DNA from: Blastococcus mobilis
Lineage (GTDB): Bacteria; Actinomycetota; Actinomycetes; Mycobacteriales; Geodermatophilaceae
Direction of reading: 5' to 3'
Assembly (NCBI RefSeq): GCF_900188025.1
Contig: NZ_FZNO01000002.1
Span: forward strand, 62,001 to 126,000
DNA length: 64,000 nt
The position numbers and the translations under genes were made by a program. How positions within the stretch are numbered: position 1 is the first letter of the stretch; the number at the start of each line of letters is the position of its first letter. The notes below the pieces were generated by a model that was given only the letters and a program-made list of their open reading frames with translations, had not been told where the DNA came from and ran no database searches. Positions 4,497 to 56,328 of the stretch are shown here, piece after piece.

Positions 4497-4798
4497 GGTG
4501 TGGCCCTTCGACGGTCGGCACCGAGGAGCCGGAACCATCCGTCGCGACCCACCCGACGGACTCCCGGTCCACCCTGAACGGGGTGACAACACGCTACCCG
4601 CGACTGACCCCACCCGGCACCGCCCCCGCACGCTGACGCAGTCAGGAGGTGGGCGCCATGACAGCCGCAGATCGAGGCGCTCGCGGCGCGACCAAGAGAT
4701 GTCATCTGACCGAGCGCCTCTTGAACCTCGGGACTGCTGCACGAGCAGGTGACGTCTGATCTGTGGTGCCGAGAGCTGCCGCTGGAAGGATGCACACC

Positions 4799-29668: not shown

Positions 29669-30025
29669 ATGAGCTGGGCGACGGCGGTCCTGCTCCTGCT
29701 GGCGTGCTCCATGCTGGGAGCGCTCGCCAGCTTCGCACCCGGCCGGGTCCGCACCCGGTTCCTCGTCCTGGGTTCGATCGTGGGGGCATTCCTGGTGTTC
29801 ATGCCGGCGAAGTGCGTCACCGCGACGGCATCGACGCCACTCGGCACTCCGGAGCAACTGGGTGGCCAGACGTCGTGCGAGACGCTGTACGGCACCGCAC
29901 TGCCAGAGGTCGGCGCGGTGCAGGCGGACGCGGTCGGCACCCTCCTCGGGATCATCGCTGCCGGAGCCGCAGCAACGGCCCTGCTCGTGGTGCGGCGTCG
30001 GACGAGCAGTCCGCCGCCGGCCTAA
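29669..30025 (+). CDS. small membrane protein, unknown function
   Basis: 118 residues. Two hydrophobic N-terminal segments (TAVLLLLACSMLGALASF; FLVLGSIVGAFLVFM), an exported loop with two Cys (AKCVTAT and QTSCETLYG) that could form a disulfide, then a third segment (AVGTLLGIIAAGAAATALLVV) and a basic tail. No family recognised. ATG lies 8 bases after the PolDom gene, so they are probably co-transcribed; its last four bases overlap the convergent carboxylesterase. Confidence 0.6.
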   Translation: MSWATAVLLLLACSMLGALASFAPGRVRTRFLVLGSIVGAFLVFMPAKCVTATASTPLGTPEQLGGQTSCETLYGTALPEVGAVQADAVGTLLGIIAAGAAATALLVVRRRTSSPPPA

Positions 30026-31539
30026 CCGGGCCTCTGCAGTGCCGGCGGCGTGTGCGCCGGACGGTGCCGCCGCCAGATCCGTCGTGAGGCCGCCAGAGGG
30101 TCGGCAACCATGCTGTCGCGCGCAGCCCACACCCGGGTCAGAGCCTCGCCGGGGCGGTAGCTCGACCACCCCGGGTCGCCGGTGGCCGCGAACGCCGTCC
30201 AGGCGGCTCTCATCCGGGCCGACAACTCCTCCTCCGGCTCCCCGGTCCGCCCCAGCCACGCGCGGGCGAACGGGGTGTCGAGCGTGCCGAAGACGAACGG
30301 GATCTCAAGGGCGTGGCAGGCCCCGAGCGCACCGCCGGCCACCGGACTGGGCCACGCGAACTCGTAGGCGAAGGTTCGCCCCTGCACGCTTCCGGCACCG
30401 GCATGCCCGTCGGCTGCATCGAGGGTCGGCATCCGGAACAGCCAGTCCGAGCACAACACGGAGTACAGGTCGGGGCCGGCCAGTCCGCGGTAGGCCCGCC
30501 CGTAGTCCTCCGCTGCGGCGCCCCCGGAGAACAGCGTGACGGCGGCCCGGAACACATCCTGCATCCCCTGCCGGCCGCGCCGACCAGCCGACTCGAGCAT
30601 CATCTGGTACTCATCCCGGTTGTAGCCGACCAGAAGATCCAGGTCGGCGGCGGCGCCGTCGCCCAGGGCGTCGAACGGCGACGCGGGGAGCACCTCACCG
30701 TCGATGATCGGGAAGTACGGCGTGGTGGCGTAGTGCAGCACGCCCCAGGCCTGCGGCGCGTCCTCGAGCGCGGCGATGACCTCGGCGGAGGTGTTGGCCA
30801 GCTGCTGCGGAGCGAGGGCCGCCAGTTCCTCGGTGCGCGGGGAGACCCCCGCCGCGGTGGCGACCCGTCTGGTGACCCGGGAGGCCAACTCCGGCGGGTA
30901 GAACAGGCCGGGGACGCTCTGAGCGATGCAGCGGCGGAACAGCCCCCGTGCGGACGGCATGGTGGCCAGCGCCACCACCGATCCCCCGCCTGCGGAGGAA
31001 CCGCATACGGTCACGTTGTCCGGGTCGCCGCCGACGACGGTGATGTTGTCCTGCACCCAGCGCAGGGCCGCGACTTGATCGAGCAGGCCCCGGTTGTCGG
31101 GAACGTCGGGCAGATGGCCGAAGCCCTCGAATCCGACGCGGTAGTTGAAGGTCACGACCACGACCCCTTCCCGCGCCAGCCGCGTCCCGTCGAGGACCGG
31201 GTCGTCAGCGGACCCGTGCTCGTAGGCGCCGCCGTAGATCCACACGAGCACGGGCAGTCCCCGGGTGGTCGGATCCGGGGTCCAGACGTTGAGCGTCAGA
31301 CAGTCAGGAGCGCGCGCCGGCCGGGCAGGCCGGTCGCTCCCCCAGATGGGCTGCGGCGGGCGGGGGCCGAACCGGGTCGCGTCCCGGACGCCGGACCAGG
31401 GCACCGGCAGGGACGGCGCCCGGAATCGGCGCGGGCCGAAGGGAGGCGCGGCGAACGGGACGCCGCGGAGGACGGCGCCACCGGCGGGATCACGCAGGCC
31501 GCGCAGGAGTCCGGCCCGGGTCCGGAAGGTCACCTCCAC
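30022..31539 (-). CDS. type-B carboxylesterase/lipase family protein
   Basis: 505 residues. Type-B carboxylesterase signatures: RGVPFAAPPFGPRRFRAP, DCLTLNVWTP, PVLVWIYGGAYEHGSADDP (oxyanion hole), the nucleophile elbow CGSSAGGGSV in DNVTVCGSSAGG, GYNRDEY (acid region) and ACHALEIPFVFGTLD (catalytic His). It hydrolyses carboxylic esters, probably in the cytoplasm as no signal peptide is seen. GTG at 31539 starts the family's usual N-terminus. It lies 95 bases behind the hydrolase-CoA ligase fusion on the same strand and could supply free aromatic acid from esters to that pathway; this link is inference. Confidence 0.88.
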   Translation of the reverse strand: MEVTFRTRAGLLRGLRDPAGGAVLRGVPFAAPPFGPRRFRAPSLPVPWSGVRDATRFGPRPPQPIWGSDRPARPARAPDCLTLNVWTPDPTTRGLPVLVWIYGGAYEHGSADDPVLDGTRLAREGVVVVTFNYRVGFEGFGHLPDVPDNRGLLDQVAALRWVQDNITVVGGDPDNVTVCGSSAGGGSVVALATMPSARGLFRRCIAQSVPGLFYPPELASRVTRRVATAAGVSPRTEELAALAPQQLANTSAEVIAALEDAPQAWGVLHYATTPYFPIIDGEVLPASPFDALGDGAAADLDLLVGYNRDEYQMMLESAGRRGRQGMQDVFRAAVTLFSGGAAAEDYGRAYRGLAGPDLYSVLCSDWLFRMPTLDAADGHAGAGSVQGRTFAYEFAWPSPVAGGALGACHALEIPFVFGTLDTPFARAWLGRTGEPEEELSARMRAAWTAFAATGDPGWSSYRPGEALTRVWAARDSMVADPLAASRRIWRRHRPAHTPPALQRPG

Positions 31540-31634: not shown

Positions 31635-34034
31635 TCAGCCCGCGACTCCCAGCAGCGCCTGCTCGCGCAGCCGGGACCGCTGCACCTTTCCCGCATCCGT
31701 GCGCGGCAGCTCGGACACGAAGTGGAAGGTCCGTGGGGTCTTGTTGCCACCGAGGCGCTGGCGCACCTGCTGGCGCAGGGTGACCGAGAGCGCGTCCGAG
31801 GGGGCGACCCCGTCGAGCACCACGAACGCCTCCGGCTTGATCAGCTTGTCCCGGTCGGGCACGCCGACGACGGCGCACTCGGCGACCCGCTCGTCCTGGC
31901 TGAGCACCGACTCGATCTCCACCGGGCTGACCCACATGCCGCCGACCTTGAGCATGTCGTCCTCGCGGCCCAGGAAGGAGAAGTGGCCGGAGTCGTCCTC
32001 CACGACGACGTCGCCGGTCCGTAACCACTCCCCCGTCATCGTCTGCCTGCTGAGCCCGAACTGCCGCCAGTAGAACGGCGCCAGCGAGCCGCCTCGGACG
32101 AGCAGCGTTCCGGTCGTGCCCGGTGGCACGACCTCGCCGTGCTCGTCGACCACTCTGGCCTCGTAGCCGTCGACCACCGTGCCCAGGCAGTCCGGTCGGA
32201 TGTCGTCGAGGCGGTTGGAGATCACGATGTGGCAGGTCTCGGTGGCGCCGATGCCGTCGAGGATGTCCAGGCCGGTGGCCTCCTTCCAGCGGTGCAGCAG
32301 CGAGCCGGCCAGCGACTCGCCGGCCGACACGCAGACCCGGATGCCGCGGAAGTCGGCCGGCCCCGAGGAGCTGGACCCGGCGGCGAGGGTGTTGGCGTAG
32401 CCGGTGGGAACACCGAACAGGACCGAGGGCCGGAATCGCCGCACGACCTCGGCCACCATGCGTGGCTGCGCCGGCGCGTCCAGCAGGACCGACGTGGCGC
32501 CTACCGCGAACGGCAGGTACAGCCCCCCGCCCAGGCCGTAGGCGAAGGAGAGCTTGGAGACGGAGAAGGTCACGTCGGACTCGTCCAGGCCGAGGACCGG
32601 CCGGGCGTAGGCGTCGGCGCAGAAACGCATGTGGCTCTGCAGGTGCACGACCGCCTTGGGGCGCCCGGTGGTCCCGGAGCTGTACAGCCAGAAGGCCATG
32701 TCCTCGGCCACGGTGTCCGCTGGCTCGAGCCGGTCGTCGGCCGCCGCGGTGATCTCGGCGAAGTCGGACTCGCCGGGCACGGGTTCGGTCTCACCGACGA
32801 CGACCAGCCGGCACGGGCGGGTGGCACCCAGGTCGCGCACCGCCGTCCGCACGGCGAGCGCGGTCGACGCGTCGACGACCGCCACCTTGGCGCGGCTGTC
32901 GGTGAGCAGGAACGCGTAGGCGTCCGGGGCGAGGCTCGGGGGCACCGGGACCGGCACCGCACCGGTCTTGACCGCGCCGAAGAACGTCGTCGCGAACTGC
33001 ACGCCGTCCGGCAGGGCGATCAGCACCCGGTTCTCCGGCTCCACGCCGAGCTCGCTCAGCGCGTTGCCCACCCGGTTGGCGGCCGCGGCCACCTCCCCGT
33101 AGGTCCACTCCCCCTCGGGGGTCCGGACGGCGGTCTTGTCCCCTCGGCCCAGGTCCAGGTTGCCGTCGAGCAGGTCGACCGCGGCGTTGTAGTGGTCGGC
33201 CTGGCTCAGCCACCGGGCAGCGGGAGAGCCTCCGACGGCGAGGGGATGGCGGCCCAGGAAGTCCAGCAGGATCCGGGCGGCGCTGGTCGGCTGCTGGATG
33301 TGCAGCAGGTGCGTGGCGCCCTCCAGCACAGTCCGCTCGGTCTGCGGCAGCCACTCGCGGATCTGCTCGTAGCACTGCTCGTAGAGGGCTGAGCTGCGGG
33401 AGCCGCGGACGAACAGGAGGGGGGCCCGGATCCGGCACGCCTCCTCGGCGCCGAACCGCCAGGCCTCGTGCGCCGGGGCCTCCACGCCGAAGTAGGTGTC
33501 GGTGTCGCGCAGGCTCTGCTCGAGCGCACCGGGCACGTTCTGTGCGACGGCGGCCCGCTCCTCCGGGCTGCCGAGGAACAGGTCCTGGGCCGCTTCCCAG
33601 TCACCCAGCCGGTATCGCTCCCCGGCGGCCCGGACCAGATCGACGACCGCCCGGCCGCCGGGCACGGACAGCAGCGCCGCCTCGAGCAGCACCAAGGACT
33701 GCACCCGCTCCGGATGGTCGGCGGCGAGCTGCAGCGCGATCGTCCCGCCGTAGGAATGGCCGACGACGTGGGCCCGCTGCACGTCCAGGTGGTCGAGCAG
33801 CGCCCGGGCGTCGGCGGCCTGGTCGGCGATGGTCACCGGCCCCTGCACCGGCGAGCTGCCCAGGAAACCCCGGCGGTGGTAGCGGATGAGCATGTACCGC
33901 TCGGCCAGCTCCGGGCGGGTCACCAGCGGCAGGAACGAGCGGGCGATGTGGCTGCCGTGGACGAACAGGACCGGTTCCCCCGAGCCGCGGATCTCGTACT
34001 CGAGCGTGGCACCGTTGATGCGCGCCGTCTGCAC
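31635..34034 (-). CDS. fusion of alpha/beta hydrolase and benzoate-CoA ligase-family enzyme
   Basis: One uninterrupted frame of 799 residues. Residues about 1-265 form an alpha/beta hydrolase: LFVHGSHIARSF, YHRRGFLGSS, elbow GHSYGGT with Ser 94, ATHLLHIQQ with His 242; the usual Asp after the sixth strand is replaced (FVRGSRSS). Residues about 275-799 are an acyl/aryl-CoA ligase of the benzoate-CoA ligase family: YSSGTTGRPKAVVH (P-loop), YGLGGGLYLPFAVGA, GIGATETCHI, WLRTGDVV, REDDMLKVGG and DAGKVQRSRLRE. It would activate an aryl acid with ATP and CoA; the hydrolase could act as a thioesterase or on ester precursors. The GTG is the first plausible start. It diverges from the gentisate genes across a shared operator-like repeat. 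Confidence 0.88.
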   Translation of the reverse strand: MQTARINGATLEYEIRGSGEPVLFVHGSHIARSFLPLVTRPELAERYMLIRYHRRGFLGSSPVQGPVTIADQAADARALLDHLDVQRAHVVGHSYGGTIALQLAADHPERVQSLVLLEAALLSVPGGRAVVDLVRAAGERYRLGDWEAAQDLFLGSPEERAAVAQNVPGALEQSLRDTDTYFGVEAPAHEAWRFGAEEACRIRAPLLFVRGSRSSALYEQCYEQIREWLPQTERTVLEGATHLLHIQQPTSAARILLDFLGRHPLAVGGSPAARWLSQADHYNAAVDLLDGNLDLGRGDKTAVRTPEGEWTYGEVAAAANRVGNALSELGVEPENRVLIALPDGVQFATTFFGAVKTGAVPVPVPPSLAPDAYAFLLTDSRAKVAVVDASTALAVRTAVRDLGATRPCRLVVVGETEPVPGESDFAEITAAADDRLEPADTVAEDMAFWLYSSGTTGRPKAVVHLQSHMRFCADAYARPVLGLDESDVTFSVSKLSFAYGLGGGLYLPFAVGATSVLLDAPAQPRMVAEVVRRFRPSVLFGVPTGYANTLAAGSSSSGPADFRGIRVCVSAGESLAGSLLHRWKEATGLDILDGIGATETCHIVISNRLDDIRPDCLGTVVDGYEARVVDEHGEVVPPGTTGTLLVRGGSLAPFYWRQFGLSRQTMTGEWLRTGDVVVEDDSGHFSFLGREDDMLKVGGMWVSPVEIESVLSQDERVAECAVVGVPDRDKLIKPEAFVVLDGVAPSDALSVTLRQQVRQRLGGNKTPRTFHFVSELPRTDAGKVQRSRLREQALLGVAG

Positions 34035-34159: not shown

Positions 34160-34253
34160 GGAGAGTCCCAGGTCGGAACGGCCGCGGTGGCGGCGTCCCC
34201 GGTCGGCAGCGGTGCGGTGTGGGCGTAGGCGGCGCGCGGAACGTCGCCCTGCC

Positions 34254-34296
34254 CGTACCAACCGACGCCGTCCATCCCGGCTCCTCGGTTGGTACG
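34254..34296. promoter_or_regulatory. 12-bp perfect inverted repeat, likely operator
   Basis: CGTACCAACCGA at 34254-34265 and its exact reverse complement TCGGTTGGTACG at 34285-34296 flank 19 bases in the 430-bp gap between the divergent fusion gene and gentisate dioxygenase gene. Length and placement fit a regulator binding both promoters. No regulator gene is immediately adjacent. Confidence 0.6.
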
Positions 34297-34463
34297 CGCA
34301 ATGCTGAACGCAGTCAAGACCGCGCCAGACGTCGGTCCGGCCGCGACCGGCGAGCAGCTCGACCGTCGATTGCGCAGGCACGGCGATCCTGCACAGCGGA
34401 AAACTGTTCCCCACGGCGTCGGAACGTCGGAGGATCGACCACCCGTCGAGGAGGACTCCCTTC

Positions 34464-35612
34464 ATGGCCCAGCAACTCGCGTCGCCTGTCTCGCTGACCG
34501 CCGTCGATGCACCCGACCAGCCGACTCCCACGCCCGAGCTGGAGCAGCTGTACCGCGGGTTCGAGCAGGAGCTGCTCGTCCCGTTGTGGACCGAGATCGG
34601 CGACCTCATGCCGGTTCACCCCCGGTCCCGTGCCGTACCGCACGTGTGGCGCTGGCAGAACCTGGTGGAGCTCGCCGACCGGGCGGGACATCTCGTGCCC
34701 GTCGGCCGTGGCGGTGAGCGCCGGGCGATCGCGCTGGCCAACCCCGCGCTGGGCGGCAAGCCCTACGCCACCCCCACCCTGTGGGCGGCGATCCAGTACC
34801 TGATGCCCGGCGAGGACGCTCCCGAGCACCGGCACACGCAGCACGCCTTCCGCTTCGTCGTCGAGGGCGCGGGGGTGTGGACCGTGGTCGGCCGGGATCC
34901 GGTGCCGATGAATCGCGGCGACTTCCTGCCGCAGGCCGGCTGGAACTGGCACGCGCACCACAACGCCGCCGACCGGCCGATGGCGTGGATCGACGGCCTG
35001 GACATCCCGTTCCAGTACACCTCGGAGTCACAGTTCTTCGAGTTCGGCCGCGAACAGATCAGCGAGCAGGAGCGGACCACGCCGGAGCGCTCCCGCTCGC
35101 AGCGGTTGTGGGGTCACCCCGGCCTGCGCCCGGTCTCCGTACCGGGCACCACTCCCGGCACCCCGCTGCTCAACTACCGATGGGCCGACACCGACGCCGC
35201 GCTCACCGACCAACTCGCGCTGGAGGCCGAGGGCTACCCGGGCACGGTGGAGCCGGGCCACGCCGCCGTCCGCTACACCAACCCGACCACCGGCGGGGAC
35301 GTCCTGCCGACGATCCGGGCCGAGATGCACCGCGTCCGCCGCGGCGCCGAGACCGCCCCGCGTCGCGAAGCCGGGTCCTCGGTGTTCCAGGTCTTCGACG
35401 GCAGCGGCACCGTCACCGTCGGCGACTCGTCCTGGCGCGTCTCACGCGGCGACCTGTTCGTCGTCCCGTCGTGGCAGCCGCTGTCCGTCCATTCCGAAGC
35501 CGGCACCTCCGACTCCGACTCCGGCGCCTTGGACCTCTTCCGGTTCAGCGACACCCCGATCTTCGAGGCACTGCACCTCGACCGCGTCTCCGTGGAAGGC
35601 GCCGAAGGATGA
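34464..35612 (+). CDS. gentisate 1,2-dioxygenase (bicupin)
   Basis: 382 residues, the normal length. This Fe(II) ring-cleaving enzyme converts gentisate to maleylpyruvate. The first cupin has PEHRHTQHAFRFVVEGAGVWTVV, giving metal-ligand His 122 and 124 with a further His in NWHAHHN. The second cupin (residues about 285-360) has EAGSSVFQVFDGSGTVTVG and RGDLFVVPSWQPLSVHSE. The N-terminal PVHPRSRAVPHVWRW stretch is typical of gentisate and 1-hydroxy-2-naphthoate dioxygenases. GAGGAGG at 34448-34454 gives a strong ribosome site. The stop overlaps the next start (ATGA), and three further genes of the lower pathway follow. Confidence 0.9.
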   Translation: MAQQLASPVSLTAVDAPDQPTPTPELEQLYRGFEQELLVPLWTEIGDLMPVHPRSRAVPHVWRWQNLVELADRAGHLVPVGRGGERRAIALANPALGGKPYATPTLWAAIQYLMPGEDAPEHRHTQHAFRFVVEGAGVWTVVGRDPVPMNRGDFLPQAGWNWHAHHNAADRPMAWIDGLDIPFQYTSESQFFEFGREQISEQERTTPERSRSQRLWGHPGLRPVSVPGTTPGTPLLNYRWADTDAALTDQLALEAEGYPGTVEPGHAAVRYTNPTTGGDVLPTIRAEMHRVRRGAETAPRREAGSSVFQVFDGSGTVTVGDSSWRVSRGDLFVVPSWQPLSVHSEAGTSDSDSGALDLFRFSDTPIFEALHLDRVSVEGAEG

Positions 35613-36451
35613 AGCTGGCCACCATCCGCACCCTCGACGGGCGCACCCGCGCGGTGCGCGTCGAGGACGATCGTCTCGTCGACCTGGGCGCAGCCGACCT
35701 CGGCGTCCTTCTCGGCACCCCGGGGTGGGAGGAGCGCGCGACGGCCGCGACGGAGCCGGTCCCCGAGGTTCGGGGCGCGGCCTTCGCTCCGGTCGTCCCG
35801 CGCCCCGGCAAGATCGTCTGCGTCGGGCTCAACTACCGCAACCACATCCTCGAGATGGGCCGGGAGCTGCCCGAGTACCCGACGCTGTTCAGCAAGTTCG
35901 TCGACACCCTCGTCGGTGCGAACGACGACATCGTCAAGCCGCCGGAGACCGACGCGTTCGACTGGGAATGCGAACTGGCGGTGATCATCGGCACCCGCGT
36001 CCGCCGGGCACGCGGCGCCGACGCCGAGCAGGCGATCGCGGGCTTCGCGGTGCTCAATGACGTCACCTGCCGGGACTGGCAGTTCCGGACCCGAGAGTGG
36101 CTGCAGGGCAAGAACTGGGAAGCCACCACGCCCCTGGGTCCGTACCTGGTCACCCCGGACGAGCTGCCCGGCGGCGTCCGCCCCGCCTTGGAGATCACGA
36201 CCAGGATCGACGGCGAGACGGTGCAGAAGGACACCACCGCCGACCTGCTGTTCGACCCGGTCGCGCTGGTCGAGTACGTCTCCACGATCGTCTCGCTGCG
36301 GCCCGGCGACGTGATCGCCACCGGCACCCCTGGTGGCGTCGGCCACGCCCGCAAGCCCGCCCGCTACCTGGAGGTCGGCCAGGTGCTGACCACCGAGATC
36401 ACCGGCCTGGGTCGGTGCGAGAACATGGTCGTCGCCGACATCCCGGCGTGA
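35609..36451 (+). CDS. fumarylacetoacetate hydrolase family protein, likely fumarylpyruvate hydrolase
   Basis: 280 residues. FAH-family core: KIVCVGLNYRNHILEMG, PTLFSKFVDTLVGANDDI, the metal-binding acids in DWECELAVIIG, FAVLNDVTCRDWQFR, WLQGKNWEATTPLGPYLVT, and PGDVIATGTPGGVGHARKP. These Mg2+/Mn2+ enzymes hydrolyse C-C bonds of acylpyruvates. Directly coupled to gentisate dioxygenase and followed by a maleylpyruvate isomerase, it most likely splits fumarylpyruvate into fumarate and pyruvate. Direct maleylpyruvate hydrolysis is an alternative. Confidence 0.88.
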   Translation: MKLATIRTLDGRTRAVRVEDDRLVDLGAADLGVLLGTPGWEERATAATEPVPEVRGAAFAPVVPRPGKIVCVGLNYRNHILEMGRELPEYPTLFSKFVDTLVGANDDIVKPPETDAFDWECELAVIIGTRVRRARGADAEQAIAGFAVLNDVTCRDWQFRTREWLQGKNWEATTPLGPYLVTPDELPGGVRPALEITTRIDGETVQKDTTADLLFDPVALVEYVSTIVSLRPGDVIATGTPGGVGHARKPARYLEVGQVLTTEITGLGRCENMVVADIPA

Positions 36452-36494
36452 CGGCGATGCGCGACGCCGCGACGCCGCGACGACCCAGGCTCGG

Positions 36495-37172
36495 ATGGAC
36501 GAGGGCACGTCGGTCTTCCTGGACAGCCTCGCCCGCATCGAGGACGACGCACTCGCCGGTCCCACCGCGCTACCGGGCTGGACCGGTCGGCACCTGGTGG
36601 CCCACGTGGCCGCCAACGCCGAGGCGCTGGTGAACCTGGCGCACTGGGCCGCCACCGGTGAGGAGACGCCGATGTACTCCTCCCGGGGACAGCGGAACGC
36701 GGACATCGAGGACGGCTCCCGACGCCCACCGGACGAACTGCGCCGGTGGGCGGCCGCCTCCTCGGAGCGGCTCTCCTCCGTCCTGCGTGCGCTCACCGAC
36801 GAGCAGTGGTCACGGCGCGTCCGCACCGCCCAGGGGCGCGAGGTCGCGGCCACCGAGATCCCGTGGTTGCGCGCGCGGGAGGTCATGGTGCACGCGCTGG
36901 ACCTCGACCCGACCCTGACCTTCGACGACCTGCCCGAGGGTTTCGTTCTCGCACTCGTCCACGACATCGTCGCGCGTCGATCGAACGGCGAGCAGCCGGC
37001 CCTCGCCCTCGCCGCCGACGGCGGCCGGCACGTGTGGTCGATGCCGGGGCGGGACCAGCCCATCGAGGTCCACGGATCACTCGACGGCGTCGCGGCCTAC
37101 CTCGCCGGGCGCCCCGGAGCCGACGTGACGAGCCCGACCGGTGCGGTTCCCGATCTTCCGCCCTGGCTGTAG
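36495..37172 (+). CDS. mycothiol-dependent maleylpyruvate isomerase family protein
   Basis: 225 residues. The N-terminal DinB-like/MDMPI four-helix domain has PTALPGWTGRHLVAHVAANAEALVNLAHWA, with the His (HLVAHVA) that helps bind metal, and VMVHALDLD supplies a further His. The MDMPI C-terminal domain follows (LALAADGGRHVWSM, LDGVAAYLAGR). Members isomerise maleylpyruvate to fumarylpyruvate using mycothiol, the actinobacterial thiol. Position between the FAH hydrolase and a thioesterase in a gentisate operon supports that reaction. No strong Shine-Dalgarno is seen before the ATG at 36495. Confidence 0.88.
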   Translation: MDEGTSVFLDSLARIEDDALAGPTALPGWTGRHLVAHVAANAEALVNLAHWAATGEETPMYSSRGQRNADIEDGSRRPPDELRRWAAASSERLSSVLRALTDEQWSRRVRTAQGREVAATEIPWLRAREVMVHALDLDPTLTFDDLPEGFVLALVHDIVARRSNGEQPALALAADGGRHVWSMPGRDQPIEVHGSLDGVAAYLAGRPGADVTSPTGAVPDLPPWL

Positions 37173-37403
37173 GCCCCTCTCTCCGCGGTACCACCGTCCA
37201 TCAGACCCCACCAGGTGCCGGGCAGGCGCCGTCCGGGGACGCGCAGGCTTGCCGGGAACATCTCCTGAGAGACCGCCGCGAACACTTCGTCCCGTCCTCC
37301 GGAGAGTCCGGGTTCCCGAGGTCATCGACGCCGGTCAGGAGCTGCGCCGGGTGGTCCCCGGAGAGGCGGGAGCGGTGGGGGCTCGGCCAGCTAGGGTCCC
37401 CCG

Positions 37404-37817
37404 ATGACCACCGAAGCGCCGGCCTGGTTCCCCGAGGACGTGACGAGTGCCCTGGACGAGAAGCTCGGCATCGAGATCATCGACTGGAATCCCGACCGAG
37501 TCGTGGCCCGGATGCCCGTCGAGGGCAACACCCAGCCCTACGGCCTGCTCCACGGCGGAGCGACGTGCAGCCTGGTCGAGACCGTGGGGTCGTACGCGGC
37601 CGCCTTGGCAGCGGGGCCCGGCGCTCACGTGGTGGGCATCGAGCTGAATGCCACCTACCTTCTCTCCGCCACGTCCGGGCACGTCACGGCGGTCTGCACA
37701 CCCGTCGGGTCCGAGCTTCCGCTCGCAACCTTCGTCATCGAGGTCGTCGACGACCGAGGTCGGTCGACCGCCAGCGCTCGCCTGACCTGCATGGTGCGAC
37801 CCGCCCGCGACGCCTGA
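37404..37817 (+). CDS. PaaI-family hotdog thioesterase
   Basis: 137 residues of single hotdog domain. LDEKLGIEIIDWNPDRVVARMPVEGNTQPYGLLHGGATCSLVETVGS contains the HGG motif on the long helix that binds and activates acyl-CoA, followed by GIELNATYLLSATSGHVTAVC. PaaI-type enzymes hydrolyse aromatic or hydroxy-aromatic acyl-CoAs, so it could release gentisate from gentisyl-CoA or rescue CoA. It follows a 231-base gap. TAGGGT at 37392-37397, six bases before the ATG without a ribosome site, suggests a leaderless transcript of its own. Confidence 0.85.
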   Translation: MTTEAPAWFPEDVTSALDEKLGIEIIDWNPDRVVARMPVEGNTQPYGLLHGGATCSLVETVGSYAAALAAGPGAHVVGIELNATYLLSATSGHVTAVCTPVGSELPLATFVIEVVDDRGRSTASARLTCMVRPARDA

Positions 37818-38022
37818 TCCGCGGCATCCGTCGTCTCGACGCACGTCGCGAGCGGAACCCACGAGCCGGGTCCACAGCGGCCGAGTCGGGCGGATCTCGC
37901 TCGGCAGAGAGCCACGCCGGTCAGGACCCGGCTCGGACGTCCTACAGGCTCGAGTCCCGAGTCAAGCGTTGCGTAGTGCGAGAGACTGACGCGGTGTCAG
38001 CTCCTGCGCACCACCTCGCCCG

Positions 38023-38922
38023 GTGACCGCTGCGACCTCGCGTGTCCAGTCGGTCGGCGGCCCGGCCCTGTTCGTCCTGCTCTGGAGCACCGGCTTCGTC
38101 GGCGCCAAGTACGGCCTGCCCTACGCCGAGCCCTTCACCTTCCTCGGCGTCCGCCTCGCGCTGGCCGCGGTGCTGCTCGCCCTGATCGCAGTCGTCCTCC
38201 GTTCGGCCGGCATGGTCTCCCGGCCGCAGTACGGCAGAGCCGCAGTGGCCGGGATCCTCCTGCACGCGGGCTACCTCGGCGGGGTCTTCTACGCGATCTC
38301 GCTCGGCATCCCGGCCGGGGTCTCCGCAGTCGTGGTGAGCCTGCAGCCGGTCCTCACAGCCGTCCTCGCCAGCCGGGTGCTCGGCGAGCACCCGACGCCG
38401 CGGCAGTGGGCGGGCCTCGCGCTCGGCGTGGCGGGGGTGGCCCTGGTGGTCGGCCCCGGGCTGGCCCGTGCCGGCTCGGCCGAGCCCCTCTCGATCCCCG
38501 GACTGGTCGCCTGCGTGGTGGCCCTCGCGTCGGGCACGCTCGGCACCGTCTTCCAGAAGCGGCACGGGGACGGTATCCCGCTGGTCTGGGGAACGGCGGT
38601 GCAGTACGTGGCGGCCGGGGCACTGCTGCTGGCGGTCGCGGCCGCCACCGAGGACATGACGATCCGATGGACCGGCGAGTTCGTGGCCGCCTTCGTCTGG
38701 CTCGTCGTCGTCCTGTCCCTGGGCGCCGTCCTGCTGCTGCTCCTGCTCCTGCGTCGCGGCAGTGCTGCCGGGGTCTCGAGCCTGTACTACCTCGTGCCGC
38801 CGGCGGTCGCCGTCGAGGCGTACCTGCTCTTCGGCGAGCGGGTGACCGCGCTCTCGCTCGTCGGGATCGTCGTCACCGCGGTGGGCGTCGCACTCGTCGT
38901 CGTGCCGCCCCGGAAACGGTGA
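38023..38922 (+). CDS. EamA/DMT-family transporter
   Basis: 299 residues with ten hydrophobic segments in two EamA repeats, starting from GPALFVLLWSTGFVGAKYGLPYAEP (the family's WSTGF motif) and LAGVSAVVVSLQPVLTAVLASRVLGEHPTPRQW-type repeat ends, then SSLYYLVPPAVAVEAYLLFGERVTALSLVGIVVTAVGVAL. Drug/metabolite transporters usually export small metabolites. It closes the plus-strand run of gentisate genes but after a 205-base gap and with its own GTG start, so co-function is uncertain. The neighbouring convergent gene is the AMP ligase. Confidence 0.85.
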   Translation: MTAATSRVQSVGGPALFVLLWSTGFVGAKYGLPYAEPFTFLGVRLALAAVLLALIAVVLRSAGMVSRPQYGRAAVAGILLHAGYLGGVFYAISLGIPAGVSAVVVSLQPVLTAVLASRVLGEHPTPRQWAGLALGVAGVALVVGPGLARAGSAEPLSIPGLVACVVALASGTLGTVFQKRHGDGIPLVWGTAVQYVAAGALLLAVAAATEDMTIRWTGEFVAAFVWLVVVLSLGAVLLLLLLLRRGSAAGVSSLYYLVPPAVAVEAYLLFGERVTALSLVGIVVTAVGVALVVVPPRKR

Positions 38923-38968
38923 CGACGGGGCGCCGCCCCTCCGACTCCCGGAACGGCGGGGGCGACGG

Positions 38969-40639
38969 TCACCCGGCGGCGAGCCGGGTCGCCAGGTCCT
39001 CGCGGAGCGCCTTCTTGTCGATCTTCCCGACCTTGGTCGTGGGCAGGTCGTCGACGACCTCGAGTCGCTCGGGCCACTTGTAGCGGGCCACGTCGGCGGC
39101 CGCCATCGCCGTCCGGACGTCCTCGAGGGTCAGCGTCGCCCCCGGCTTGAGGACGGCGTAGAGCGCCACCCGCTCCCCCAGCTCGGCGTCGGACATCGCC
39201 ACCGCGGCGACCTGCGCCACCTCCGGCAGTCGGTAGACGAGGTTCTCGACCTCCTCGGCGCTGATCTTCTCGCCACCCCGGTTGATCATGTCCTTGTCCC
39301 GGCCCTCGACGACGAGGTTGCCGTCCGGCCGGCGCCGCACGACGTCCCCGCTGCGGTACCAGCCGTCCGCGGTGAACGCGCGGGCGTTCTGCTCCGCCGC
39401 CCGGTAGTAGCCCCTCGGGGTGTACGGGCCCCGGGTGAGCAGCGAGCCGGGGACGCCGTCGGGGACGTCCCGGTCGGCCTCGTCCACGATCCGCACCTCG
39501 TCGCCCGGGCTCAGCGGACGGCCCTGGGTGGCGCAGACGACGTCGTCGGGATCGTCGAGCCGGGTGTAGTTGAGCAGCCCCTCGGCCATCCCGAACACCT
39601 GCTGCAGCGTCGCGCCGAGCACCGGCCGGATCCGCCGGGCGACCTCGTCGGCGAGCCGGGCGCCCCCCACCTGGAGCAGGCGGAGGGAGCCCAGCTCCCC
39701 GGCGCCGTGCTCCTCGGCATGAGCCAACCAGCGCTGCGCCACCGCCGGGACGGCCGCGGTCGTGGTCACGCCCTCCGCCGCGATCACGGCGAAGGTCCGC
39801 TCCGGTTCGGGTGATCCGAGCATGACCGCCCGCCCACCGGTCAGCAGCGTGCCGAGGATCCCCGGGCAGGCCAGCGGGAAGTTGTGCGACGCCGGCAGGG
39901 ACGTCAGGTAGACGGTGTCCTCGTCGAGGCCGCAGAGTTCGGCGCTGGCGCGGGCGTTGTAGCCGTAGTCGTCGTGGGTGCGGGCGATGAGCTTCGGCAG
40001 CCCCGTGGTCCCGCCGGAGAGCAGGAACACCGCCACCTCGCGGCTGCCCGGCGGATCGGCGTCCCATCGGGACCGGACCTCGTCCTCCGGTTCGGCACAG
40101 AGCGCGGTGAGGTCCACGGAGCCGGGGCGGACGTCGTCGCCGACCACCAGCACGTGCCGCAGGCCGGCCGACTCCGCCACCAGCTGCACCGCCATGGCCT
40201 GGTGGTCGAAGCCGCGCAGCTCGCCGGGGACGGCGAGGGCGGCGGCCTCGCTGTGCTCGGCGAGGTAGGCCAGCTCGTGGCGGCGATGGGCGGGCAGCGC
40301 CATGACGGGGACGACGCCGGCGCGCAGGCAGGCGAGCGTGAGGACGACGAACTGCCAGCAGTTGGGCAGCTGGACCACGATCCGGTCGCCCCGCTCGAGC
40401 CCGAGGTCGGCGAGCCGGCTCGCGGCCGCGTCGGAGCGGGTGGTCAGCGACCGGTAGGTGAGCCGCAGGTCCCCGTCGACGACGGCCACCGCGTCGGGGC
40501 GGCGGTCGGCGGCGGCCCACAGCTCCTCGCCCAGCGAGAGCCCGCGCCACCATCCCCGCTCGGCGTAGGCGGCGGCGACGTCGTCGGGCCACGGGACGAC
40601 CCCCGCGGCGATCGGCGTCGGTCGGAAGGGCTCAGACAC
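38969..40639 (-). CDS. salicylate/2,3-dihydroxybenzoate-AMP ligase-like enzyme
   Basis: 556 residues, close to EntE/DhbE-type adenylating enzymes and to SdgA of the Streptomyces salicylate pathway. Motifs: FLLSGGTTGLPKLIARTHDDYGYN (P-loop and the DHB-specific HNDY-like segment), LPASHNFPLACPG (aryl-binding Asn), QQVFGMAEGLLNYTR, WYRSGDVV, GRDKDMINRGGEKISAEEVE and TTKVGKIDKKALRED. It activates an ortho-hydroxybenzoate as the acyl-AMP. GTG at 40639 overlaps the preceding gene by eight bases, so it is translated with the CoA ligase upstream. No carrier-protein gene is near, so siderophore use is less likely than catabolism. Confidence 0.88.
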   Translation of the reverse strand: MSEPFRPTPIAAGVVPWPDDVAAAYAERGWWRGLSLGEELWAAADRRPDAVAVVDGDLRLTYRSLTTRSDAAASRLADLGLERGDRIVVQLPNCWQFVVLTLACLRAGVVPVMALPAHRRHELAYLAEHSEAAALAVPGELRGFDHQAMAVQLVAESAGLRHVLVVGDDVRPGSVDLTALCAEPEDEVRSRWDADPPGSREVAVFLLSGGTTGLPKLIARTHDDYGYNARASAELCGLDEDTVYLTSLPASHNFPLACPGILGTLLTGGRAVMLGSPEPERTFAVIAAEGVTTTAAVPAVAQRWLAHAEEHGAGELGSLRLLQVGGARLADEVARRIRPVLGATLQQVFGMAEGLLNYTRLDDPDDVVCATQGRPLSPGDEVRIVDEADRDVPDGVPGSLLTRGPYTPRGYYRAAEQNARAFTADGWYRSGDVVRRRPDGNLVVEGRDKDMINRGGEKISAEEVENLVYRLPEVAQVAAVAMSDAELGERVALYAVLKPGATLTLEDVRTAMAAADVARYKWPERLEVVDDLPTTKVGKIDKKALREDLATRLAAG

Positions 40640-42671
40640 GGTGCTCCTCCTCGCGCAGCGTGACGACGGCGTCGAGGGCGATCAGCCCGTCGACGGTGAC
40701 CCGCAGCGGATTGATCTCGACGGACTCCAGCTCGGGACGGGCCAGGAGAACCCCACCGAGGGCCACCAGCACCGCGCCGAGCGCGGCCCGGTCCGCGACC
40801 GGGCCGCCCCGGAAGCCGTCGAGCAGGGCCCGCCCGGCCAGTTCGTCGGCGAGCGCACCGGCGTCCTCCGGGCTTCCCGTCGCCGGGGCCACGGCGACGT
40901 CGGCCAGCGCCTCGGCGACCACGCCGCCCAGACCCAGCAGGACGATCGGACCGAACACGGCGTCCCGCGAGGCGCCGGCCAGGAGGTCGACCCCGGGCGG
41001 CGCCATGGACTCCAGCAGGAACCGTCCGGCGCCGAGCCCCTCGAGGGCGTCGAGCGCGGCGTCGAGCTCGACTGCGTCGCGGACGCCGAGGTGCACACCG
41101 CCGACGTCGGACTTGTGGACCACCCGCGCGTCGAGCAGCTTGACCGCGAGCGGGCCGGGCAACTCGGCCAGGGCCCGGTGCGCCGCCGCGCGGTCGTGGC
41201 AGGCCCGCCGCGGCGGGGTGCGCACGCCGAGCCGGCCGAGCAGCGTCTTCGCGGCGTCCTCGTCGAGTTCCCCGCTCGGAAGGTCGACGACGGCCGGTGC
41301 CACGGGAGGCGCGGCGGATGCCCTGGCCTGCGCCCGGGCGTCGTCGATCAGCGCGACGACCGCGGTGGTGAGGGCCGCAGGGCTCGTGAGGGAAGGGACG
41401 CCGAGGTCCCGCAGTGCCTGCCGTTGCGGCCGCACCTGCTCCGCCGGGCCGCCCAGCCCGACCACCAGGGGGCCCGCGGCCGGGTCGACGACCCCGGGCA
41501 GGTCCAGCGCGTCCGGCTCGGACAGGGCGTAGGCGCTGACCAGGTCGATGCCGGGATCGGCGGCGACGGCGGCCAGCACCGAGCCGAAGCCGGGCCCCGG
41601 TCGGCCGGTGTCGACGGGGTTGGCCTGGTAGGTGAGCGGCGGCAGCAGCTCGCCGAGCCGCGAGACCGTCGCGGCCGAGAACGCGGGGACGGGCACGCCG
41701 CGCCCGCGGAGCCCGTCGACGTGGAGCAGGCCGGGCCCCGCCTGGGCGGTGACCACCCCGACGGCGGGACCGGCGGACGGCGGCAGCCGCAGGACCGACA
41801 GGGCGGTGACCGCGTCGACCAGCGCGCGCTCGTCGTCGACGAGGACCGCGCCCGCCGAGCGCAGCGCCGCGCGGGTGGTCCGCCAGGAGGTGGCCAGGGC
41901 ACCGGTGTGGGAGCGGGCGAACTCGGCGACGTCGTTGCGGCCGACGACGAGCGCGACGACCGGGACGCGGGCGCTCGCGGCGCGGACGGCGGCGACCAGG
42001 GCCGGACCGTCGTCGACGGATTCGACGTGCAGTGCGACCACCCGCGTGCGGTCGTCCGCGGCCAGGTGCCCGAGGACGTCGGGGGCGCCCACGTCCACCG
42101 CGTTGCCGAGCCCCACGGCGAGCGAGACCCCGAGCCCGGCCTCGGCCAGGAGGAAGGCCAGCGCGTGGTTGACCCCACCGCTGGCCGCCACCACGGCGAC
42201 CGGTCCGGGCGGCACGGAGGCGACCCCGGGGACGAAGGTGGCGGTCAGCGCCCGGGCGGGGTCGAGGAAGCCGGAGGTGTTCGGGCCGAGCAGCGCGATC
42301 CCGGCGTCCACGGCCGCCGCGACGAGCTCGCGCTGGTAGGCCACGCCCGGGCCGCCGGCCTCCGCGTAGCCGCCGGAGCAGACGAGGACCGCACGGGCTC
42401 CCCCCGCGGCGGCGTCGGTGAGGGCCGCCGCCGACACCGAGGCGGGCACGCACAGCACGGCCAGGTCGATCGGTCCGGCGGCAGACGCGGCCTCGGCGAC
42501 ACCGGCGTAGCGGGCCGCCGCCGGGTCGGCATCCCGGGGGTTGACACCGACCACCGTGCCGGGGAACGCGCGGAGCGACCGGGCCATGACCGCCCCCAGC
42601 TTCGAGGGGTCGCGGGAGGCGCCGACGACGGCGATGCCCCGCGGGGCGAACAGCGGGTCCAGCCGGCTCAC
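40632..42671 (-). CDS. acetate-CoA ligase-family (NDP-forming) acyl-CoA synthetase
   Basis: 679 residues, fusing both halves of NDP-forming acyl-CoA synthetases: the alpha part with FAPRGIAVVGASRDPSKLGAVM (CoA-binding Rossmann), VLLCS-GYAE-type and GLLGPNTSGFLDP, and an ATP-grasp beta part (LGRLGVRTPPRRACHD, VVHKSDVGGVHLGV, GPIVLLGLGGVVAEAL, SVEINPLRV). The usual catalytic His of the alpha part appears as a GGVNHALAF segment. GTG overlaps the hydroxylase stop by four bases. Sandwiched between the AMP ligase and the hydroxylase, it probably completes CoA transfer to the aryl acid; this role is inference. Confidence 0.8.
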   Translation of the reverse strand: MSRLDPLFAPRGIAVVGASRDPSKLGAVMARSLRAFPGTVVGVNPRDADPAAARYAGVAEAASAAGPIDLAVLCVPASVSAAALTDAAAGGARAVLVCSGGYAEAGGPGVAYQRELVAAAVDAGIALLGPNTSGFLDPARALTATFVPGVASVPPGPVAVVAASGGVNHALAFLLAEAGLGVSLAVGLGNAVDVGAPDVLGHLAADDRTRVVALHVESVDDGPALVAAVRAASARVPVVALVVGRNDVAEFARSHTGALATSWRTTRAALRSAGAVLVDDERALVDAVTALSVLRLPPSAGPAVGVVTAQAGPGLLHVDGLRGRGVPVPAFSAATVSRLGELLPPLTYQANPVDTGRPGPGFGSVLAAVAADPGIDLVSAYALSEPDALDLPGVVDPAAGPLVVGLGGPAEQVRPQRQALRDLGVPSLTSPAALTTAVVALIDDARAQARASAAPPVAPAVVDLPSGELDEDAAKTLLGRLGVRTPPRRACHDRAAAHRALAELPGPLAVKLLDARVVHKSDVGGVHLGVRDAVELDAALDALEGLGAGRFLLESMAPPGVDLLAGASRDAVFGPIVLLGLGGVVAEALADVAVAPATGSPEDAGALADELAGRALLDGFRGGPVADRAALGAVLVALGGVLLARPELESVEINPLRVTVDGLIALDAVVTLREEEHRV

Positions 42672-44266
42672 TGCCCGGCCCCGGCGCCGAGCGGATCCGT
42701 GCTGACCAGGTCCGTCCGGCCGGAGAGGACGGCGGTCAGCGCGTCGTCGGCCGCCTGCTCCCCCGACCCGTCCTCGACCAGGAGGCTGACCGCGCCGTGG
42801 GTGAGCCGCGCCTCCTCGCACACCAGCCGCCGGGTGAGCGCGGTGCCCCCGCCGGCCGCCACCAGGGCGGCACCCGCCGCGACCCCGTCGGCGACCGCCG
42901 CGAGGGCCGCGGGCAGGTCCGCCTCGTCGTCGGGCGCGGAGACCCACAGCCCCCAGGGTCCACCGTCCCCCGGGGGCCGCTCGCGCAGCGGGAGCGGATC
43001 GCCCGGCAGCCGGGCGGTCCGCCCGGCCACCGGGACGAGTCGGCCGGGCAGCCGCTGCCCTGCGACATCGATGGGGCTCTCGAGGGGCCCGGCGCCGTGC
43101 TCGGCCCGCCAGCGCGCGTGGACGGCGCTGACGAAGGCGTCGTCGCGGCGGCGGAGCTTCGCGTCGGGCAGGCTGCGGGTGAAGAAGTGGTAGGCGAACT
43201 GCCAGGCAGGCAACGCGTCGTGCGATCGGCCGAAGTGTTCCCACCAGGAGAGGCTCGGGCGGGCGGAATCCTGGATTTTCGCCACCTGCGGCTGCCGGAC
43301 GGCCTCGTACTCGGCCAGCGCGGCGTCGATGTCGGCGCCGTGGTCGTCGAGCGCGGCCACCAGCGCGACGGCGTCCTCCATGGCCATCTTCGTGCCGGAG
43401 CCCACCGAGAAGTGCGCGGTGTGCGCGGCGTCGCCGAGCAGGGCGACCGCGGTGCTCCCCGCGCGGTGCCGCCAGCGCCGGGTGCGGCGGGTTCGGAAGT
43501 TGCCCCACCGCGAGTTGTTGACCAGCAGCGGATGGCCCTCGATCTGCTCGGCGAAGAGGTCCTGGAGGTAGGCGTGGGACTTCTCGTCGCTGCGGCCCGG
43601 CGGCTGGGTTACGTCGAACTCGTCGAGTCCGGCGGCCCGCCAGGCGTCCTCGTCGGTCTCGACGATGAAGGTGGAGACGCCGTTGCCGATCGGATAACCG
43701 TGGACGGCGAAGACCCCGTGCGGCCCCCGCTCGTGGACGAAGGTCAGCCCGTCGAACGGGTAGGTCGTACCCAGCCAGATGAACTTGGCCGTCGCCGTCT
43801 CGACGCAGGAGTCGAAGACTCGGGCGTTCCGCTCGCGAAGGCGGGAGTTCGCGCCGTCGGCGGCGACCACCAGGTCGTAGCCCGCGGCGAGCAGCCCGTC
43901 AGGATCGGCCTCGGTGGCGAACCGCAGGTCGACGCCGACCTCGATCGCGCGCTGCTGGAGCAGATGGAGCAGCATGCGGCGCTCGACGGCCGCCATGCCG
44001 TTCCCCCCGCACAGCAGCCGCTCGCCGTGCAGCCGGACCTCGATCGGATCCCAGTGGACGCCGTGCTCGGTCAGCGCGGTGCGCAGCACCGGGTCGGCGT
44101 CGTGGATGCCGGCCAACGTGGCGTCGGAGAACACCACGCCGAACCCGAAGGTGTCCTCCGGACGGTTGCGCTCGAAGACGGTGACCTCGCGGGTCGGGTC
44201 GGAGGCACGGGCGAGGGCCGCGGCGAACAGCCCACCGGGACCACCGCCGATCACCGCGATGCGCAT
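42668..44266 (-). CDS. FAD monooxygenase, salicylyl-CoA 5-hydroxylase-like, with reduced C-terminal domain
   Basis: 532 residues. The FAD domain (1-390) has GGGPGGLFAAALA, FGFGVVFSDATLAGI, AADGANSRLRE, and GDAAHTAHFSVGSGTKMAMEDAVALV, all closely like salicylyl-CoA and 2-aminobenzoyl-CoA hydroxylases. The usual OYE-like partner domain (about 370 residues) is reduced to about 140, ending RLVCEEARLTHGAVSLLVEDG and TAVLSGRTDLV, which echoes the last strands of that barrel. It likely hydroxylates an aryl-CoA at C5, giving gentisyl-CoA. GGGAGAGCC precedes the ATG. It heads the operon with the NDP-forming ligase and AMP ligase and diverges from a PaaX regulator. Confidence 0.85.
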   Translation of the reverse strand: MRIAVIGGGPGGLFAAALARASDPTREVTVFERNRPEDTFGFGVVFSDATLAGIHDADPVLRTALTEHGVHWDPIEVRLHGERLLCGGNGMAAVERRMLLHLLQQRAIEVGVDLRFATEADPDGLLAAGYDLVVAADGANSRLRERNARVFDSCVETATAKFIWLGTTYPFDGLTFVHERGPHGVFAVHGYPIGNGVSTFIVETDEDAWRAAGLDEFDVTQPPGRSDEKSHAYLQDLFAEQIEGHPLLVNNSRWGNFRTRRTRRWRHRAGSTAVALLGDAAHTAHFSVGSGTKMAMEDAVALVAALDDHGADIDAALAEYEAVRQPQVAKIQDSARPSLSWWEHFGRSHDALPAWQFAYHFFTRSLPDAKLRRRDDAFVSAVHARWRAEHGAGPLESPIDVAGQRLPGRLVPVAGRTARLPGDPLPLRERPPGDGGPWGLWVSAPDDEADLPAALAAVADGVAAGAALVAAGGGTALTRRLVCEEARLTHGAVSLLVEDGSGEQAADDALTAVLSGRTDLVSTDPLGAGAGQ

Positions 44267-51149: not shown

Positions 51150-51998
51150 TCAGGCGCCGATGAGGCGGCGGGCGTGCTCGTGCGCCGGCCCGGCCAACCG
51201 GCCGCGCAGCTCGCTGAACAACTCGGCGGCGCGCGCCCCGTTCCAGTCGGCCGGCAGCAGGTCGAGCGGCAGGCCCGGATCGGCATAGGCCAGCCGCCGC
51301 CAGTCGGTGAGCAGCCGCACGTAGTCGGCGAACGCCTGCCCGGGCCCGGCTCCATCGCCGGCCACGATGCGTTCGCGCACCGGCTCCTGCCGCTCGAGGA
51401 ACTCGGCGTACCGGGCGTGCAACTGACCCAGGTCCCACCAGTGGGCGACGTTGTCGCGGATCTGCCCGAGCGCCAGGTGCGCGCCGCGGAAGAGCTCGAC
51501 GTATCCGGCCAGGCCGCGGCGCGCCAGCACCTCGGCGGCCTCGTCCGCCAGGTGACCCGGCGCCACCCATACGCCCGGGGCGACGGTACCGAAGCCCAGC
51601 CGGGTCAGCTCGGACCGCAACTGGTGCCGCTTGTCCCGCTCGGACTCGGGCACCGAGAAGACGACCAGCAGCCAGCCGTCGGACTCGTCCGCGCGGCGCC
51701 GGCCGAAGATGCGGGCGTCACCGTCGGCCAGGATGTCCCGGGCCACCTCGGTGAGCGCGTAGCCGGCGACGCCGTCCATCCGCAGGGCGTCGAGCAACCC
51801 CCGCCGCTTCAGCCGGGAGATCGAGGAGCGGACGGCGGGTTCCTCCACGCCCAGGGCGGCCATGAGCCGGACGACGGCAGCGATCGAGAGCCAGCCGCCG
51901 CACTCACGGGCGTAGAGCCCGTACAGGGTCACGATGAGCTGCCGCGGCTGCAGCGCACCGGACTGGGTGGTTGCCTCCTCGACGGCGGTCACCGGCAC
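51150..51998 (-). CDS. PaaX-family transcriptional regulator (2)
   Basis: 282 residues. Winged HTH near residues 20-80 (QLIVTLYGLYARECGGWLSIAAVVRLMAALGVEEPAVRSSISRLKRRGLL), PaaX middle domain with SDGWLLVVFSVPESERDKRHQLRSELTRLGFGTVAPGVWVAPGH, and C-terminal YVRLLTDWRRLAYADPGLPLDLLPADWNGARAAELF. GTG at 51998. Divergent from the 2-aminobenzoate-CoA ligase; the shared promoter carries the TTGACG/CGTCAG palindrome also found upstream of two other operons, making this the best candidate for the regulator of the aminobenzoyl-CoA genes. Confidence 0.9.
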   Translation of the reverse strand: MPVTAVEEATTQSGALQPRQLIVTLYGLYARECGGWLSIAAVVRLMAALGVEEPAVRSSISRLKRRGLLDALRMDGVAGYALTEVARDILADGDARIFGRRRADESDGWLLVVFSVPESERDKRHQLRSELTRLGFGTVAPGVWVAPGHLADEAAEVLARRGLAGYVELFRGAHLALGQIRDNVAHWWDLGQLHARYAEFLERQEPVRERIVAGDGAGPGQAFADYVRLLTDWRRLAYADPGLPLDLLPADWNGARAAELFSELRGRLAGPAHEHARRLIGA

Positions 51999-52030
51999 AC
52001 GATAGCGACGACGGGCGCCGGACGGACCAA

Positions 52031-52072
52031 GGTATGGCGCGTTGTTGACTCTCGTCAGGTAGTCGCCATACT
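52031..52072. promoter_or_regulatory. symmetric divergent promoter (PaaX 2 and aminobenzoate-CoA ligase)
   Basis: Plus: TTGACT (52045-52050), 16-base spacer, CATACT (52067-52072). Minus: CTGACG (plus 52053-52058), 16-base spacer, CATACC (plus 52031-52036). The two -35 boxes abut in the palindromic core TTGACTCTCGTCAG, and the -10 boxes lie in GTATGGCG/CGCCATAC repeats at 52033-52040 and 52064-52071. One repressor dimer here could block both genes. Confidence 0.65.
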
Positions 52073-52126
52073 TGCGCTCGACCGCCGGCCTCGCCGCACT
52101 CCGGCGACCTCTGGAGAGGTACCTCG

Positions 52127-53752: not shown

Positions 53753-53755
53753 CCG

Positions 53756-56166: not shown

Positions 56167-56250
56167 GGAGCCCCCTCGGGTCGGGAACGCGGACCGCCAG
56201 AGCATTCCGTGACCAGGCGTCGCGGGGGAATGCCCTCCTCGTCGGAGTTG

Positions 56251-56292
56251 CATCTAGCGCAATGTTGACGACCGTCCTGAAGGCGGCATACC
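56251..56292. promoter_or_regulatory. divergent promoter (cyclase and aminobenzoyl-CoA monooxygenase) with palindrome
   Basis: Plus: TTGACG (56265-56270), 16-base spacer, CATACC (56287-56292). Minus: AGGACG (plus 56273-56278), 16-base spacer, TAGATG (plus 56251-56256). The overlap TGTTGACGACCGTC matches the operator core seen at 49940 and 52043. Confidence 0.6.
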
Positions 56293-56328
56293 CTCGACGC
56301 GCGGTCCACCCGAGGCAGAGGACGAGCC

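Follow-up and report, generated by a model that had tools for sequence, protein, structure and literature searches.

In a 64,000-nucleotide stretch of the Blastococcus mobilis genome (contig NZ_FZNO01000002.1, positions 62,001 to 126,000; hereafter the window), we found a single minus-strand gene (31635..34034) that encodes an alpha/beta hydrolase joined to an enzyme of the benzoate-coenzyme A (CoA) ligase family in one chain of 799 amino acids. Judged by sequence, both halves are ordinary enzymes; their combination in one chain was met in no other genome that we examined. We propose, with about even confidence, that the hydrolase half is an esterase or lactonase whose aromatic-acid product passes on to the ligase half, so that the protein would serve the surrounding aromatic-acid gene cluster as an auxiliary feeder.

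The reading frame and its two domains

The gene runs from a GTG at 34034 to a TGA at 31637-31635 and comprises 2400 nucleotides, or 799 codons, with zero internal stops; the plus strand across the same interval contains two stops. The GTG at 34034 was chosen as the start because hydrolase relatives align from its residue 1, although the open frame continues upstream as far as a TTG at 34301. Residues 1-262 form the hydrolase domain (33249..34034), as delimited by Pfam, conservation and an AlphaFold model; it matches PF00561 (Abhydrolase_1) with 87.8 bits over residues 39-248 (cut-off 25.8). A short linker of residues 263-276 (33207..33248) separates it from the ligase domain, residues 277-799 (31638..33206), which is matched by PF00501 (254.7 bits, 297-656), by PF13193 (70.5 bits, 706-783) and by NCBIfam TIGR02262 (525 bits, cut-off 375.25). 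A preliminary description of this DNA had reported one unbroken 799-codon frame in which a complete aryl-CoA ligase comes after a hydrolase. The frame and the family matches agree with it, and all the motifs it named are present, namely GHSYGGT with Ser94, His242, SGTTGRPK and REDDMLKVGG.

Probable catalytic residues and nearest relatives of the hydrolase half

The preliminary description had found the acid of the catalytic triad missing and suggested that the protein may not be a normal hydrolase. The site after strand 7 that usually holds Asp is indeed Ser214 here, and Glu118 (in VLLEAA) lies where strand 6 ends, 24 residues past the nucleophile Ser94 (in GHSYGG). We aligned 49 relatives whose matches span at least 180 query residues. 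Matches to the N-terminal part only (such as L018-L021 and L023) and copies of the gene itself (window, L001, L009, L173, L195) were left out; L022 supplies two distant rows, and some genes sit in two loci and are hence counted twice in the row counts. Close relatives were defined as those with at least 90 bits, the scores dropping from 110 to 54. All 24 close relatives have Glu118, with a non-acid residue at position 214 in 23 and Glu in one, whereas all 25 distant relatives have Asp214 and none has Glu118 (Asp118 occurs in one). One distant row has Asp in place of the nucleophilic Ser. A smaller first-pass alignment gave the same pattern of Glu118 versus Asp214.

Structure prediction, which the preliminary description had proposed for locating the acid, placed all three residues where they are expected. 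The AlphaFold model of residues 1-276 (mean predicted local distance difference test score, pLDDT, 93.5) has strands spanning residues 88-93, 111-117, 206-211 and 233-237. In it, Ser94 and Glu118 each follow directly after a strand (88-93 and 111-117, respectively), and His242 lies in the loop after strand 233-237. Glu118 is most likely the triad acid, and the hydrolase half is probably a working serine hydrolase with a Ser94-Glu118-His242 triad. The available text of PMC10913051 describes a second possible site for the acid, behind strand 6 and equivalent in function, which the zearalenone lactonases ZenA and ZHD101 use, and that of PMC7034887 terms alpha/beta hydrolases with this arrangement group B of the fold. 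Glu118 would supply the acid that had seemed absent, at a site equivalent to that of Asp after strand 7, and the doubt about a normal hydrolase is not supported. It is highly improbable that the half is a dead or regulatory domain, as the replacement of Asp by Ser214 might suggest, because Glu118 substitutes for it in every close relative and Ser94 and His242 are retained; we put this candidate aside.

ZenA and ZHD101 share with the hydrolase half the Ser-His pair with an acid shifted to the end of strand 6; in ZenA this acid is Asp instead of Glu. Neither ZenA nor ZHD101 was recognised among the best 60 of 88 sequence matches or the best 50 of 1911 fold matches, and no direct comparison with them was made. 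In these listed matches, the top sequence and fold relatives are the esterases 6eb3 and 8v16, and Foldseek matched the hydrolase model to an esterase with an E value of 1.6e-19. The other listed matches include a polyhydroxybutyrate depolymerase, the enol-lactonase 2xua, haloperoxidases, carbon-carbon hydrolases and epoxide hydrolases, with dehalogenases additionally among the sequence matches. Haloalkane dehalogenases also carry the acid after strand 6. Among the best 25 NCBIfam families, the hydrolase half lies below every cut-off; its best matches, the enol-lactonase families PcaDC (96.8 bits) and PcaD (92.5 bits), are far under their cut-offs of 390 and 255.85.

The ligase half

The ligase half carries the motifs of TIGR02262, a P-loop (YSSGTTGRPK), A5 with its Glu (GATE), the A8 hinge (GREDDMLK, REDDMLKVGG) and A10 (TDAGK, with the presumed catalytic Lys783). 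Among solved structures it is closest to the anthranilate-CoA ligase 4wv3 (423.7 bits), with the benzoate-CoA ligase 2v7b next (390.3 bits); a further benzoate-CoA ligase, 4eat, is also related. The whole domain, scoring above the family cut-off, is assigned to the benzoate-CoA ligase family. It differs from other members in its fusion to a hydrolase, in an identity of at most 47% to sequences from other genomes (the top value, from the phylum scan) and in its A5 motif, GATETC. The A5 stretch reads DGIGATETCHIVISN. Neither the Thr nor the Cys occurs at its place in any of the 80 compared ligase rows (at least 200 bits and at least 430 aligned residues, exact duplicates removed, one other window gene included). 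In place of the benzoate-type stretch (TEMLHIF, TEALHIF and similar) the fusion ligase has TETCHIV; these residues presumably belong to the substrate pocket.

Another member of the ligase family, 42% identical, lies on the same contig about 35 kb off, in what we take to be a box (benzoyl-CoA oxidation) cluster. Several of the fetched neighbourhoods likewise contain genes that, from their resemblance to BoxB and BoxC, are presumably box genes. A scan of viral contigs found no relatives of the ligase half.

Junction of the two domains and occurrence of the fusion

The third-position content of guanine plus cytosine (GC) is 0.93-0.99 per 100-codon window over codons 1 to 750 and 0.92 in codons 240-290, with no sign of a frame slip. 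There is an out-of-frame TGA at codon 276 (about 33204-33209, codons 276-277), right at the domain junction and one of three TGA in that frame across codons 200-400, so that a single insertion or deletion there could split hydrolase and ligase genes. This TGA could point to a join of recent date or to an error in base count. It may also be a remnant of the end of the old hydrolase gene.

Free-standing relatives show where each enzyme normally begins and ends. Seven of eight close free-standing hydrolases stop 0-11 residues past the point aligned to query residues 260-268, and the eighth (L017) stops 35 residues past residue 255. Ligase alignments start at query residue 277-287 (first 40 of 74 rows), and in 43 of the 74 free-standing ligase rows (30 of the first 40) a Met lies at most 7 residues before the aligned start. 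The join would therefore connect two complete enzymes through about 14 residues. That a sequencing or assembly error merged two adjacent genes is very unlikely. The junction TGA, where one wrong base count would suffice, and the failure to find the fusion in a second genome speak for such an error; against it stand the even third-position GC over the junction, the location of the gene in a 309-kb contig and the absence of any in-frame ATG, GTG or TTG within codons 263-290 at which a separate ligase could start, where so many ligase rows have a Met close by.

In every scan made, the fusion was found only here. With the full-length query, a scan of the family matched only the gene's own genome (1 of 112 at an E value of 1e-120). 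The preliminary description had counted absence from every related genome as a point against the fusion; the 111 other family genomes indeed gave no match at this threshold, which we take as a sign of a singleton and not as a refutation of the reading frame. Wider scans, own genome included, matched 18 of 394 genomes for the class (1e-90), 58 of 397 for the order (1e-95) and 46 of 396 for the phylum (1e-95). In all three, only the gene itself was matched over residues 1-799, and the other listed matches were confined to the ligase half, from residue 245 or later; in the order and phylum scans, ligase places without a fetched locus were judged by the matched query range alone. Hydrolase-only scans at 1e-30 matched 8 of 200 and 16 of 374 genomes, again including its own. 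The genome samples overlap between scans and some genomes are incomplete, so these are counts of scans and not of distinct genomes. Among 212 sequences (window included), 116 had a ligase match and 91 a hydrolase match, and the five frames holding both are all copies of this gene. None of 58 loci from a scan of named genomes was fused, the patterns having been built from one sequence and reaching close relatives only, and none of 192 plasmid records with a match covered 80% of the query.

Three candidates were rejected. An Ensifer plasmid match from query residue 231, a possible second fusion, proved to be a free-standing ligase of 554 amino acids. Long stop-to-stop frames (up to 1110 codons) surround some ligase matches, and those with a locus contain no hydrolase. 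In L167, a ligase has an alpha/beta hydrolase 2 kb away, but this protein matches the hydrolase half weakly (43 bits) and gives no support. The gene is a singleton in these scans and may have arisen by a fusion of recent date, an artefact of sequencing being the less likely alternative. We recognised no description of a fusion between a hydrolase and a CoA ligase of the benzoate type in the open-licence PubMed Central literature, which is weak evidence of absence, and the words fused, hydrolase and thioesterase do not occur in the main text of the aryl-CoA ligase review PMC8388817.

A similar arrangement exists in olefin synthesis. OleBC consists of the alpha/beta hydrolase OleB, whose nucleophile is Asp, followed by OleC, a ligase-like protein dependent on adenosine monophosphate (AMP). 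These would be the same two superfamilies in the same order as in our gene. Unlike OleB, the hydrolase half has a Ser nucleophile (Ser94); its gene lies in an aromatic context, and its ligase partner falls in TIGR02262. Identity with OleBC was put aside on the nucleophile. Since OleBC already tethers two such activities in one chain in certain Actinobacteria, according to the available text of PMC7064751, the present fusion seems worth an assay rather than astonishing.

Possible function of the fused enzyme

In the scheme that we prefer, an aromatic acid would be released from its ester or lactone by the N-terminal serine hydrolase; the ligase at the C-terminus would convert the freed acid with adenosine triphosphate (ATP) to the adenylate and then to the CoA thioester. 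The preliminary description had also considered that the hydrolase could free the acid from an ester. An ester or lactone is suggested because 6eb3 and 8v16 lead the matches, with 2xua among them, and because a type-B carboxylesterase gene (30022..31539; PF00135, 307 bits) lies on the same strand 95 bp downstream, probably co-transcribed with the fusion gene. Esters as substrates would fit both the carboxylesterase and the gene context. The family matches, the Glu118 shared by all close relatives and the confident hydrolase model also speak for the proposal, as does the salicylate operon of one relative (L185), which carries a separate alpha/beta hydrolase gene after its isomerase gene.

Several points weigh against this proposal. 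The sequence and fold matches also include haloperoxidases, carbon-carbon hydrolases and epoxide hydrolases, and the sequence matches dehalogenases as well, so that an ester substrate is not dictated by the fold. The A5 pocket stretch is unlike that of the 80 other ligases, and neither benzoate nor another acid can be named as the substrate, family membership being unaffected. The full-length model has a mean pLDDT of 72.7, with residues 121-290 mostly below 50, and the relative placing of the two active sites is not readable from it. No other window reference protein was matched at 1e-10 in the eight fetched hydrolase neighbourhoods, and in no locus did we find close relatives of the two halves side by side, the loci with both pairing weak matches only. 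We found no independent link between the hydrolase and ligase functions.

The salicylate-gentisate pathway probably does not require the fusion for any of its steps. At 1e-60, 20 of 108 family genomes, the gene's own among them, contain a homologue of the gentisate 1,2-dioxygenase-like gene that neighbours the fusion. Stretches of about 19.5 kb were fetched from 10 of the 19 others, and where matches overlapped, the better one was kept. The dioxygenase is 86-93% identical among these loci, and genes for a PaaX-like regulator, hydroxylase, NDP (nucleoside diphosphate)-forming ligase, SdgA and dioxygenase occur together in 4 of the 10 stretches. Separate matches at 1e-8 to the hydrolase half, ligase half, carboxylesterase or hotdog thioesterase were found in none of the ten stretches, to which this search was confined. 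Because four relatives have the core operon with no fusion nearby, the fusion looks like an addition alongside a pathway that functions on its own. The idea of the preliminary description that the hydrolase could be the missing thioesterase of the pathway was put aside on these grounds, as the gentisate operon has its own hotdog thioesterase (37404..37817, plus strand; TIGR00369, 89.5 bits, cut-off 36.6), inferred to act on gentisyl-CoA, and an SdgA-like ligase lies nearby.

Two other interpretations also take both halves as working enzymes. Alpha/beta hydrolases include thioesterases, and the hydrolase half could be one that either edits out a wrong aryl-CoA formed by its ligase partner or sets free a hydroxylated acid, for example gentisate from gentisyl-CoA. 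The fusion does put it beside a maker of CoA esters, and the hotdog thioesterase is unmatched in the relatives' stretches, so that it need not be the usual gentisyl-CoA hydrolase. We nevertheless regard a thioesterase as doubtful. It would run a futile cycle with its own ligase unless very selective, the leading sequence and fold matches are esterases, and gentisate could also be released by the NDP-forming CoA ligase that four relatives retain in their operons. With a second ligase and a thioesterase in the cluster, there is no need for a thioesterase that works against the ligase in its own chain. The editing form by itself, in which the serine hydrolase would strip wrong aromatic CoA esters (or the adenylate) as built-in proofreading in aromatic degradation, is distinctly unlikely. 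That two working enzymes without a common pathway were joined by chance not long ago is rather unlikely too. The occurrence of the fusion in one genome only and the lack of close adjacency of the two families elsewhere favour chance; the catalytic motifs kept in both halves and the even third-position GC across the join speak against it, although the same would be expected soon after a chance fusion.

If hydrolysis and CoA ligation are coupled as in our preferred scheme, the protein would be a natural one-chain catalyst from aromatic esters to CoA thioesters, useful for enzyme design and a clue to the esters that the organism meets. The fusion illustrates how aromatic-acid islands may acquire feeder modules, and it leaves the known salicylate-gentisate pathway unaltered.

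Gene neighbourhood

The salicylate-gentisate setting given in the preliminary description holds, as the gentisate operon, the SdgA-like ligase and the flavin adenine dinucleotide (FAD) hydroxylase adjoin the fusion gene. In the available text of PMC4600096, this pathway proceeds from salicylate through salicylyl-CoA and gentisyl-CoA to gentisate. The gentisate operon runs divergent from the fusion gene on the plus strand. It starts with the dioxygenase-like cupin (34464..35612; TIGR02272, 248.5 bits, below the cut-off of 442.1), followed by a member of the fumarylacetoacetate/fumarylpyruvate hydrolase family (35609..36451; PF01557), a member of the mycothiol-dependent maleylpyruvate isomerase family (36495..37172; TIGR03083, 97.9 bits, cut-off 50) and the hotdog thioesterase. 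Between the fusion gene and this operon lies an inverted repeat (34250..34300) with 16-nucleotide arms 19 nucleotides apart, the sole exact site in the window and a possible operator.

On the minus strand farther on are an aryl-AMP ligase related to dihydroxybenzoate-AMP ligase, which we take to be of the SdgA type (38969..40639; TIGR02275, 614.5 bits, below the cut-off of 723.55), the NDP-forming acyl-CoA ligase (40632..42722; PF13549, PF13607, PF13380) and an FAD monooxygenase like the hydroxylase half of salicylyl-CoA 5-hydroxylase (42668..44266; NF006101 residues 1-394, 425.5 bits, below the cut-off of 1078). The same cluster contains a PaaX-like regulator; it and these three enzymes are each under the cut-off of their best NCBIfam model. 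The operon is one-stranded in the four relatives that share it, and here (34464-44266) it forms two opposite-strand blocks, as if inverted. The NDP-forming ligase belongs to the salicylate operon in the same 4 of 10 relatives; run in reverse, it could free gentisate from gentisyl-CoA with ATP made, which would be an energy-saving substitute for a thioesterase. The separate hydrolase of L185 (4269-4982, minus strand; Abhydrolase_6) directly follows the isomerase gene of that relative's salicylate-gentisate operon, and its N-terminal start presumably resembles those of methyl-salicylate esterases.

Farther along the window, the region 51150-58776 (with locus L171) holds another gene resembling those for benzoate-CoA ligases (TIGR02262, 347.2 bits, under the cut-off of 375.25), presumably of the 2-aminobenzoate type. 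It also holds a PaaX-like regulator and a gene of the bifunctional salicylyl-CoA hydroxylase/oxidoreductase family (NF006101, 1232.6 bits, cut-off 1078). Beyond the window it is followed in L171 by what we take to be a box cluster, and the region and its continuation look like a large aromatic-CoA island. Near the other end of the window, two short adjacent frames (4763-5478) presumably represent the transposase pair of an insertion sequence.

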